From: Leucobacter weissii
Lineage (GTDB): Bacteria > Actinomycetota > Actinomycetes > Actinomycetales > Microbacteriaceae
Reading direction: 5' to 3'
Assembly: GCF_017565745.1 (NCBI RefSeq)
Contig: NZ_JAGDYM010000009.1
Span: 124,001-188,000, forward strand
Length of the DNA: 64,000 nucleotides
Part shown: positions 11,902 through 43,326 of the stretch, in pieces
Layout of the letters: each line of letters opens with the position of its first letter
Numbering within the stretch: the first letter of the stretch is position 1
Made by a program: the position numbers and the translations under genes
The notes under the pieces: model-generated
What the model was told of the DNA's origin: nothing
Seen by the model: only the letters and a program-made list of their open reading frames with translations
The model's database searches: none

Positions 11902-11903
11902 CG

Positions 11904-11985
11904 TGCCGGATGGGGGACTTGAACCCCCACGCCCGAAGGCAACGCATTTTGAGTGCGCCGCGTCTGCCAATTCCGCCAATCCGGC
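11904..11985 (-). tRNA. tRNA-Leu (anticodon CAA)
   Basis: Read on the minus strand, the acceptor arm GCCGGAT pairs with ATCCGGC at the 3' end, followed by discriminator A. The anticodon arm is GCGCA-CTCAAAA-TGCGT, giving anticodon CAA (reads UUG). The long variable arm TGCCTTCGGGCG and T-arm GGGGG-TTCAAGT-CCCCC are typical of a class II tRNA-Leu. CCA is not encoded. Length is 82 nt. A TAGGCT at 11996-12001 (minus strand) is the likely -10 element. Confidence 0.97.
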
Positions 11986-39508: not shown

Positions 39509-41302
<1,794 letters not shown>

Positions 41303-41321: not shown

Positions 41322-41360
41322 CCGCGACGAGGGAGGCCTGAGGATTAGGACTCGTCGCGG
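41322..41360 (-). terminator. leuA attenuator terminator
   Basis: On the minus strand CCGCGACGAG (41351-41360) and CTCGTCGCGG (41322-41331) are perfectly complementary with a 19-nt loop, followed by TGTTTGTG. The first arm is formed by leader-peptide codons 10-13, so a ribosome held on the upstream Leu codons would mask it and let transcription reach leuA. Confidence 0.75.
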
Positions 41361-41389
41361 CGGCTAAGGAGAAGCGATCCGCACAGCAC
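41345..41389 (-). CDS. leuA leader peptide (LeuL-like), 14 codons
   Basis: The reading frame GTG-CTG-TGC-GGA-TCG-CTT-CTC-CTT then AGC-CGC-CGC-GAC-GAG-TCC-TAA encodes MLCGSLLLSRRDES. Four of 14 residues are Leu, three of them consecutive, written with CTT and CTC rather than the CTG/CTC usual at this G+C. The GTG start is exactly 6 nt after TATAGT (41396-41401), so the leader mRNA is probably leaderless. Codons 10-13 form the first arm of the terminator. Leu attenuators before leuA are known in actinobacteria; this peptide sequence is read directly here. Confidence 0.75.
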   Translation of the reverse strand: MLCGSLLLSRRDES

Positions 41390-41395
41390 GATCTC

Positions 41396-41401
41396 ACTAT
41401 A
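41396..41401 (-). promoter_or_regulatory. -10 element of the leu leader/leuA transcript
   Basis: TATAGT on the minus strand, 6 nt before the leader-peptide GTG. It is one of the best -10 matches in the window. No clear -35. Confidence 0.6.
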
Positions 41402-41511
41402 GCAGGAGCCGGGGCTCCCCCACGCGAGCCCTCCCCGCGCCCGTGGACGCGAGCCGCCCTTCCGTCGGATCGCAACGGGCCGTTCGGGCCCACACTCGGG
41501 GCCCGGCGAAG

Positions 41512-41517
41512 TACGCT
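41512..41517 (+). promoter_or_regulatory. Likely -10 element of the DUF2207 gene
   Basis: TACGCT, 6 nt before ATG 41524. Confidence 0.45.
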
Positions 41518-41523
41518 GGACGC

Positions 41524-43326
41524 ATGCGGAGAATCTGGTCGACGTTGCTGCTCGCACTCGCCGTCGTCTGGACGGGGGCGGCGCTGGGCGCCGCCGCGCC
41601 CGCCCGGGCCGACGTGCAGGACTTCAGCTACGACAGCTGGCACGTGGAATACGAGGTCGGCGTCGACGAGAGCGGACGTGCGCTCGCGCACGTCACCGAG
41701 ACCCTGGTCGCGCGCTTCCCCGACTTCGACCAGAACAAGGGCCTCGTGCGCGGTCTGCCGCTCGACTACCAGGGCACCTCGACCGATCCCCGTGATTTTC
41801 GGGTGACCGACGAGAACGGCAGGGCGGTGCCGTTCTGGACCGAGAAGGACGGCGGCTTCATCGCGGTGCTCACCGGCGACGACGACTACGTGCACGGGGT
41901 GCAGACCTACGTCATCAGCTACACGCTGAGCGATGTGATCCTCGCGCGCGACGACGGCACCGCCGATGAGTTCTACTGGGATCTCACCGACTTCGAGCAT
42001 CAGCAGTCGATTGCCGCCTTCACCGCTGAGATCCGCTTCTCCTCCGAGCTCGCGGCGAAGCTCGACGGCAACGCGCGCTGCTACTCCGGCACGGCGAATT
42101 CCCGCGACGAGTGCTCCATCGCGCGGGCCGGAGACGAGGCGTCCTACACGATTCCGCCGATCCCGTTGAGCCGTTTCGAGGGGGTCACGGTGGCGATCGG
42201 GCTCGAGCCCGGAAGCGTCGCCCAGCCCTTCGCCCGCGAGCACGGCGGCGTGCTCGACGGGCTCCCCCTCGCCCTGGGCGGAGCGGCTGCTGCGACGGCG
42301 GTGGCCTCCGCGGCCGTCGCGGGATCGATGCGGCGCAAGCGCAGAGTCGGCCGCGGCACGATCGTCGCGCAGTACGACGTACCGTCTTCGCTGCCCCCGC
42401 TGCTCGCCGCGCCCATCGCGGGCGCGCCGGGCCCCGCCGTCTCCGCCCAGATCGTGCACCTCGCGGTCAACGGAGCGCTCAGGATCGAGGAGGGCGAACC
42501 CGAGCGGACTCTCCTCAGCACGAAGGCCGGCAGGCCCCGGCTTCGCCTGCTCGACCCCACGCTGGCGGCGGATCAGCTCGACGCGCAGATGGTCGACGCG
42601 CTCTTCGCGTCCGGCGAGGCGGGTGCCCAGTTCACCGTGCCCGGGCAGAGCGAGAAGTTCGCAGAGCAGATGGGCGCGCTGGCCGAGGCCGGGAAGAAGG
42701 CGGCACAGGATCGCGGCTACTTCGAACGGGAGTACAGCCCGGTGGCGCGGATCCTCGGCTTCGTCTCGCTCGGGCTCGTCGTGCTGTCCGGGATCGTGAT
42801 CGCCTTCGTGCTCGCCTCCCGCGAGACGATGACTCCCGCGATCGGCATCGTTCTGGCGGCACTGGCGCTGCTGTTCGCCTTCGGCGGCGTCTGGAAGCAC
42901 CGGGTGCACACCCGCCAGGGCGCCGAGGCCCGCGAGTACCTGGAGGGCGTGCGCGAGTTCATCCGGGTCGCCGAGGCGGACCGTCTGCGGATGCTCCAGT
43001 CCTACGAAGGGGCCGAACGGAAGAGCGACGGCACCGTGGACGTGATCCACGTCTACGAGAAGCTGCTGCCCTACGCGATCCTGTTCAAACTCGAGAAGCA
43101 GTGGGGCAAGGTGCTCGAGGTGAAGTACGCGGAGCACGGCGGCTACGTGCCGCTCTGGTACCCGGCCGTCGCGGCCCACGGCATCGGTGCCTTCGACAGC
43201 ACGATCTCGCAGTTCACGAGTTCGCTGCAGTCCTCGGCCAGCTACACGTCGAGCAGTTCCGGCGGTTCCGGCGGCGGCGGGTTCAGCGGCGGCGGAGGCG
43301 GCGGCGGGTTCAGCGGCGGCCGCTGA
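41524..43326 (+). CDS. DUF2207 family membrane protein
   Basis: A 600-aa membrane protein of unknown function. A signal peptide (RRIWSTLLLALAVVWTGAAL, cleavage near ARADV) leads an extracellular beta-rich domain (about 30-235; DFSYDSWHVEYEVGVDESGR, FYWDLTDFEHQQSIAAFTAE). A helix near 245-265 crosses the membrane to a domain with a winged-helix-like part (VSAQIVHLAVNGALRIEEGE). Two more helices follow near 415-435 and 440-458. The tail is Ser/Gly-rich (GGSGGGGFSGGGGGGGFSGG), a hallmark of the family. ATG 41524 has TACGCT 6 nt upstream. It ends 2 bp before the convergent DUF5684-like gene. Confidence 0.85.
   Translation: MRRIWSTLLLALAVVWTGAALGAAAPARADVQDFSYDSWHVEYEVGVDESGRALAHVTETLVARFPDFDQNKGLVRGLPLDYQGTSTDPRDFRVTDENGRAVPFWTEKDGGFIAVLTGDDDYVHGVQTYVISYTLSDVILARDDGTADEFYWDLTDFEHQQSIAAFTAEIRFSSELAAKLDGNARCYSGTANSRDECSIARAGDEASYTIPPIPLSRFEGVTVAIGLEPGSVAQPFAREHGGVLDGLPLALGGAAAATAVASAAVAGSMRRKRRVGRGTIVAQYDVPSSLPPLLAAPIAGAPGPAVSAQIVHLAVNGALRIEEGEPERTLLSTKAGRPRLRLLDPTLAADQLDAQMVDALFASGEAGAQFTVPGQSEKFAEQMGALAEAGKKAAQDRGYFEREYSPVARILGFVSLGLVVLSGIVIAFVLASRETMTPAIGIVLAALALLFAFGGVWKHRVHTRQGAEAREYLEGVREFIRVAEADRLRMLQSYEGAERKSDGTVDVIHVYEKLLPYAILFKLEKQWGKVLEVKYAEHGGYVPLWYPAVAAHGIGAFDSTISQFTSSLQSSASYTSSSSGGSGGGGFSGGGGGGGFSGGR

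Follow-up and report, generated by a model that had tools for sequence, protein, structure and literature searches.

Classical leucine attenuators, such as that of E. coli leu, feature a leader peptide with leucine codons, and in erm-type translational attenuators ribosome stalling within a leader ORF exposes the downstream Shine-Dalgarno (SD) sequence. Upstream of leuA in most actinobacteria lies the LEU element, described by Seliverstov et al. in 2005 (PMC1262725; this and the other papers are cited here for individual passages), which comprises a leader ORF with leucine codons, a base stem formed by these codons and the leuA SD, and a pseudoknot. Its discoverers favored a binding protein, proposing one that is helicase-like, and cited earlier mutations in the leuA leader of Streptomyces coelicolor that are at odds with classical attenuation; for mycobacterial cys leaders without terminators, Rho was suggested (PMC1262725). 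The mode of action of the actinobacterial leuA leader was left open in 2005, and we found no later answer in the literature searched. In Streptomyces lividans, the leader peptide LeuL1 (MRFGLLLLSCRGEGL) is transcribed leaderless and a typical terminator is absent, and the same paper places leuL1 among attenuators (PMC8079986). Leader peptides of leuA have also been described in two corynebacteria (PMC4046766 and PMC5784534, with no start site assigned in the latter); the former is mentioned again in PMC3890552.

The window analyzed here, 64,000 nucleotides of the Leucobacter weissii contig NZ_JAGDYM010000009.1, holds a member of this LEU element on its minus strand. The hexamer TATAGT (41401-41396), part of an extended −10-like sequence (TGCTATAGT, 41404-41396), is followed by GAGATC and by the GTG (41389) of a 14-codon leader ORF encoding VLCGSLLLSRRDES (GTG CTG TGC GGA TCG CTT CTC CTT AGC CGC CGC GAC GAG TCC TAA, 41389-41345), whose three consecutive leucine codons CTT CTC CTT lie at 41374-41366. 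Past these codons stands a hairpin, H1, formed by CCGCGACGAG (41360-41351) and CTCGTCGCGG (41331-41322) with 10/10 Watson-Crick pairs and followed by TGTTTGTG. Its 5′ arm consists of the last base of leader codon 10 and codons 11 to 13, and the leader stop TAA (41347-41345) sits inside its 19-nt loop (41350-41332). A preliminary description of this stretch had reported the leucine leader peptide six nucleotides behind TATAGT and the perfect 10-bp hairpin with its first arm in codons 10 to 13, and both hold up. The gene downstream is leuA (39509-41275, minus strand, ATG at 41275), coding for a 588-aa 2-isopropylmalate synthase (TIGR00970, 843 bits, above cut-off), with its SD region GAGAAGACGA at 41289-41280. 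A scan for σ70-type promoters found none at the leader, and the −10-like assignment is based on the sequence and on the spacing of TANNNT in the family. Divergent from leuA, a secreted-looking membrane protein (MRRIWSTLLLALAVVWTGAALG...) is encoded on the plus strand (41443-43326), which places the leader promoter within a short shared region. Among tRNA genes, the window yielded a single one, for tRNA-Leu (CAA), at 11903-11985 (minus strand). Rfam gave no matches for the window region or for six related loci, and an Rfam riboswitch or T-box identity was rejected on this basis.

Two pairings are absent from the preliminary description: that between the leucine codons and the leuA SD region, and a possible one between the H1 loop and GGCCGA (41311-41306). 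In the minimum free energy (MFE) fold of the 120-nt leader, UCG-CUUCUC (codons 5 to 7) pairs with GAGAAG-A-CGA in the leuA SD region and encloses H1: CUUCUC (41374-41369) is predicted to pair with GAGAAG (41289-41284) and UCG (41377-41375) with CGA (41282-41280), with A41283 bulged. The fold, the codon bias and the computed accessibilities with their controls, all given below, point to the leucine codons as both sensing codons and 5′ strand of this base stem; fold and accessibility point to the SD region as its 3′ strand. The overall fold energy of the 120-nt leader is not exceptional compared with shuffled sequences (z = −1.29). The possible pseudoknot would join UC(A)GGCC in the H1 loop (41341-41335) to GGCCGA, with support mostly from class-level and within-genome comparisons. 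That the design has no separate antiterminator, as stated in the preliminary description, overlooks the codon:SD stem and the pseudoknot of the 2005 element (PMC1262725). No mutually exclusive antiterminator appears in the MFE fold of the window's leader or in the alignment consensus.

LeuA was searched in 54 genomes of the genus, 100 of the family and 148 of the class (some genomes shared), with matches in 52, 97 and 142, and 226 usable upstream regions were read from these three sets (L208, with 61 bases, was left out). In 224 of the 226 there is a leader containing a run of three or more leucine codons, so that the window leader is not a chance feature. The two misses are L182, a parsing artefact whose element is present as L396, and L170, the second LeuA locus of genome G032, where no leader was found by the Leu-run pattern. 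In a best-fit search, all 224 leaders can form 9 or all 10 of the H1 pairs; H1 starts 5 nt past the leucine run in 217 of them, and the leader stop falls wholly within its loop in 223. Alignment of the related genomes (A1, 115 of 143 family leaders; A2, 82 of 93 candidates listed), which the preliminary description had suggested, likewise finds the leucine codons and the stem conserved, with 99.4% standard pairs in H1 and double changes at 5 of its 10 pairs. The primary sequence of H1 is strongly conserved, beyond what pairing needs. Conservation of the leader peptide for its own sake was rejected, given that the C-terminal residues differ among lineages while H1 stays paired. The last leucine codon is CTT in 210/224 leaders (46/46 in the genus, 95/97 among other family members and 69/81 among other members of the class); among the leucine codons of leuA ORFs, the share of CTT is 1.8%, 4.6% and 3.8% in genus, family and class (32, 32 and 23 ORFs, 87 in total). 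Counted without a chance control, TANNNT stands 5 to 9 nt before an in-frame start in 143/143 family leaders, 66/81 other class leaders and 43/43 leaders of leuC (see below). Together with the leaderless leuL1 of S. lividans (PMC8079986), this spacing suggests that the leaderless start proposed in the preliminary description is probably right. A covariance model built from 82 leuA elements (R1) matched just upstream of leuA in 80/80 named loci, which is confirmation only, because these are the best 80 LeuA relatives and some are probably of the same species as the training set.

R1 matched in 98 of the 100 family genomes, with two or more matches in 68. The window's own genome holds a second element (C19:356476-356558; E = 4e-8), which was outside the training set and stands directly before leuC (L313:1489-1616; TIGR00170 above cut-off), with the leader VRMRQLLLRCRDGV and TAGAAT 6 nt before its GTG; further matches in this genome are weaker (E = 0.01 to 8). 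Among the matches listed, we read 47 sites in the family that do not belong to the main leuA: 43 precede leuC (L313, 36 of L318-L357, L361 and L373-L377) and four a second leuA (L346, L351, L354 and L356). In the leuC set, H1 has at least 9 pairs and holds the stop in its loop in 43/43 cases, and CTT is the last leucine codon in 41/43.

For each of the three pairings, partners were swapped between species; all p-values given here and below overstate independence because the sequences are related. Swapping weakened the H1 energy strongly (p = 1.8e-15, family, n = 97; p = 3.3e-12, class, n = 81) and the pairing of leucine codons and SD moderately (p = 0.0048 and 0.0066 for the same sets). A further swap test of the base stem gave p = 0.0008 in the family, 0.012 in the class—where several leuA starts were placed too far downstream by rule, adding noise to the base-stem tests—and 0.47 in the genus. 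For the pseudoknot, the class stood out (p = 2e-5, compared with 0.08 in the family and 0.28 in the genus), and in one fixed register 50.4% of cells pair, partly because the register shifts between groups. Genus-only swaps were flat, with no change for H1, codon:SD pairing or pseudoknot. In the leuC set, codon:SD pairing was stronger than in shuffled (p = 3e-12) and in swapped sequences (p = 0.021), and the pseudoknot beat shuffles only (p = 0.001; swap, p = 0.33). Comparing own pairings with leuA/leuC cross pairings within the 42 genomes that have both elements, H1 was stronger in 13, equal in 29 and weaker in none (p = 6e-4), codon:SD pairing stronger in 26, equal in 3 and weaker in 13 (p = 0.0026), and the pseudoknot stronger in 24, equal in 3 and weaker in 15 (p = 0.012). 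The possible leuC pseudoknot of the window's genome, UUCGACC with GGUCGAA, is unlike that of its leuA, and in both the own strands pair more strongly (−9.8 and −12.1 kcal/mol) than strands combined crosswise (−7.3 and −8.6 kcal/mol).

On balance, the LEU element with its probably leaderless leucine leader ORF, hairpin and possible pseudoknot is best read as acting on leuA by translational attenuation, a prediction that we consider somewhat probable. If this was the case, the RNA would begin at the leader GTG or in its immediate vicinity. When leucine suffices, the ribosome would reach the stop codon in the H1 loop and cover the 5′ arm of H1, leaving the leucine codons behind it exposed; being pyrimidine-rich and anti-SD-like, these would pair with the leuA SD region and switch leuA off. 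When charged tRNA-Leu is scarce, the ribosome would stall on the leucine codons and cover that strand, so that the SD would be free and translation of leuA could start. Lying 5 nt ahead of the leucine codons, H1 with the pseudoknot probably assists in holding the ribosome there and in bringing the SD close.

SD accessibility was computed with ViennaRNA, a folding model without pseudoknot, co-transcriptional order or RNA polymerase, using a ribosome mask with an assumed size of 30 nt. For the window, the accessibility is 0.20 in the ribosome-free leader; placing a ribosome on the first leucine codon raises it to 0.64, and placing one at the stop gives 0.31. The corresponding means are 0.22, 0.65 and 0.22 for leuA of the genus, 0.15, 0.50 and 0.18 for leuA of the family, and 0.24, 0.50 and 0.25 for leuC; the first-codon stall exceeds the free state in 46/46, 94/97 and 40/43 cases and the stop state in 46/46, 89/97 and 38/43. 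In this model, a stall in the leader is predicted to release a sequestered SD in both the leuA and the leuC sets. A stall on the last leucine codon opens the SD less (means of 0.46, 0.39 and 0.46 for genus leuA, family leuA and leuC). When the leucine codons were drawn from background usage, the free accessibility rose to 0.51 versus 0.22 (p = 4e-14, genus, n = 46), and shuffled leader segments also masked the SD less. Swapping the SD-bearing tails loosened the masking (p = 0.019 for genus leuA, 1.8e-8 for family leuA and 0.021 for leuC), with no significant change in the stall gain of leuC (p = 0.14). Leader, H1, codon bias, stop position and SD pairing are backed by these computations. Several observations count against translational attenuation: the flat genus-only swaps, the unexceptional fold energy of the whole leader, the smaller opening by a stall on the last leucine codon, the S. 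coelicolor leader mutations (PMC1262725), the uneven masking outside leuA and leuC described below, and a wide 27 × 33-nt duplex test with mechanically assigned starts, in which the window's leuA start ranks only 18th of 40 ORF starts of the window in duplex energy with the leader (−17.3 versus a mean of −17.0).

Two further models (R2 and R3) and class searches led to elements before further genes. Elements precede leuB at L380, L381, L391, L397, L399, L401, L402, L425 and L431; examples of their leaders are MRHALILRCRGGA, MRFVLILRCRDGA and MLWSVRILSCRDEAR. LeuB was checked on two fragments, for which PF00180 is above cut-off and the best NCBIfam model, 3-isopropylmalate dehydrogenase, is below its own; the other loci we take to be leuB from a GDGIG motif (LeuB-type) recognized by eye, at L425 in a shifted frame. 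Between element and leuB lies a conserved tiny ORF, 20 to 45 codons long, in which a motif resembling ALQESMDRRDQG stands close to the end (7/9 leuB loci by rule: L380, L381, L391, L399, L402, L425 and L431); three of these ORFs were scanned, giving no NCBIfam match and one Pfam match below cut-off. At L378 and L379, the element stands before a stand-alone LeuA_dimer-domain (allosteric) protein (PF08502 just above cut-off), with Leu and Val codons in the leaders MSRMLVVRRRSGV and VARRLVLVVPRRSGV, and at L382 and L387 before similar small proteins that are candidate kin of these; an 80-residue piece of the L387 protein had no Pfam match. Second, diverged LeuA genes have their own copy of the element at L346, L351, L354, L356, L359, L360, L364, L404, L415 and L422. 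In other classes of the phylum, four matches precede LeuA (L365-L368), and three weak ones (L369, L371 and L372) show no Leu-run leader by pattern. Some of the leaders found beyond the main leuA carry Ile or Val codons. Among elements other than those of leuA and leuC, a stall is predicted to raise SD accessibility by at least 0.15 in 6 of the 13 computed and by less or not at all in 7 (starts chosen by rule; three further elements had no usable start), and at L431 a ribosome at the stop likewise opens the SD. Masking is not general in leuB-type, LeuA-dimer and second-leuA elements, and given that 7 of the 13 show little or none of it, H1 and the pseudoknot may have a role of their own.

The preliminary description had proposed transcription attenuation, with H1 as a terminator that a ribosome stalled on the leucine codons prevents from forming by masking its first arm. 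While the ten perfect, G+C-rich pairs, the T-rich tail within the genus (mean of 4.87 T in 9 nt, n = 46) and the listing of leuL1 among attenuators (PMC8079986) speak for it, the T content is lower elsewhere, with 3.08 of 9 for the other family members and 2.72 of 9 for the class, and in 215/224 leaders no T run longer than 3 occurs in the 12 nt after H1. A terminator scan gave no matches, with its reach limited to loops of 3 to 8 nt and the H1 loop measuring 19, and for S. lividans leuL1 the authors themselves describe no typical terminator (PMC8079986). Nor is direct masking supported: given that H1 begins 5 nt past the leucine run, a ribosome with an assumed 30-nt footprint would cover none of the H1 bases when stalled on the first leucine codon and about 4 of 10 on the last, hardly touching H1 and leaving most of it free. 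Swap, accessibility and codon-control results fit translational attenuation better than a terminator. We consider transcription attenuation unlikely, and the window feature, as an instance of a known element, is better explained by the predicted translational attenuation than by the mechanism first described. Similarly improbable is a control by Rho or polymerase pausing, in which leader translation would decide on Rho binding downstream or H1 and the pseudoknot would cause pausing; the suggestion of Rho for the mycobacterial cys leaders (PMC1262725) and the retention of H1 in leuB-type and LeuA-dimer contexts, about half of which show weak SD masking, are consistent with it, but it leaves the CTT bias and the codon:SD complementarity unexplained. 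The discoverers' regulatory protein, binding the element with the leader ORF being secondary, would account for the conservation of the H1 sequence beyond pairing and has the proposed helicase-like candidate (PMC1262725), but we regard it as very unlikely, because a protein site alone would need neither the branched-chain codons directly before H1 nor the fixed stop position found in the leaders examined.

From the comparison, a single RNA module may be controlling several leucine genes. It is tempting to speculate, although we hold this wider reading only tentatively, that across Actinomycetota the LEU element serves the leucine branch as a modular switch read by the ribosome, acting on leuA, leuB, leuC, a second leuA and a stand-alone allosteric domain of LeuA. 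In this reading, H1 and the pseudoknot would stay constant, the sensing codons would be exchanged to suit the gene, and those of leuA and leuC would double as the anti-SD strand masking the gene start, so that codon choice and switch would be one sequence. The wider regulon is the more interesting part: elements before leuC, leuB, a second leuA or a LeuA-dimer gene were not found in literature searches, which covered few subscription papers and gave no actinobacterial leuB or leuC leader of such kind, and the main texts of PMC1262725 and PMC8079986 contain no mention of leuB, leuC, leuCD or leuD.

Compared with the systems described so far, the window locus shares with the LEU element of 2005 the leader ORF with a leucine run upstream of the same gene, the base stem of leucine codons and SD—indicated here by fold, comparison and accessibility—and, as a candidate, the pseudoknot (PMC1262725). 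It departs from that description, in the passages cited, as follows: leuA and one transposase are named there, whereas the genes preceded by an element here also include leuB, leuC, a LeuA-dimer gene and a second leuA; the codons there are those of leucine, whereas some here are Ile or Val codons; and a binding protein was favored, whereas the present data favor a ribosome-read switch (PMC1262725). The S. lividans peptide MRFGLLLLSCRGEGL recurs letter for letter in five class loci (L192, L200, L227, L228 and L229), and the leuL1 passages give no structure or SD model (PMC8079986). With E. coli leu and Streptomyces leuS (PMC1262725), the locus has the Leu-codon leader peptide in common; unlike in classical leucine attenuators, neither an intrinsic terminator with a U-tract nor an antiterminator/terminator pair is seen. 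The proposed switch would work like the erm-type translational attenuators, but differ from them in sensing an amino acid rather than a drug, in using the sensing codons as the anti-SD strand and in having a leaderless leader.
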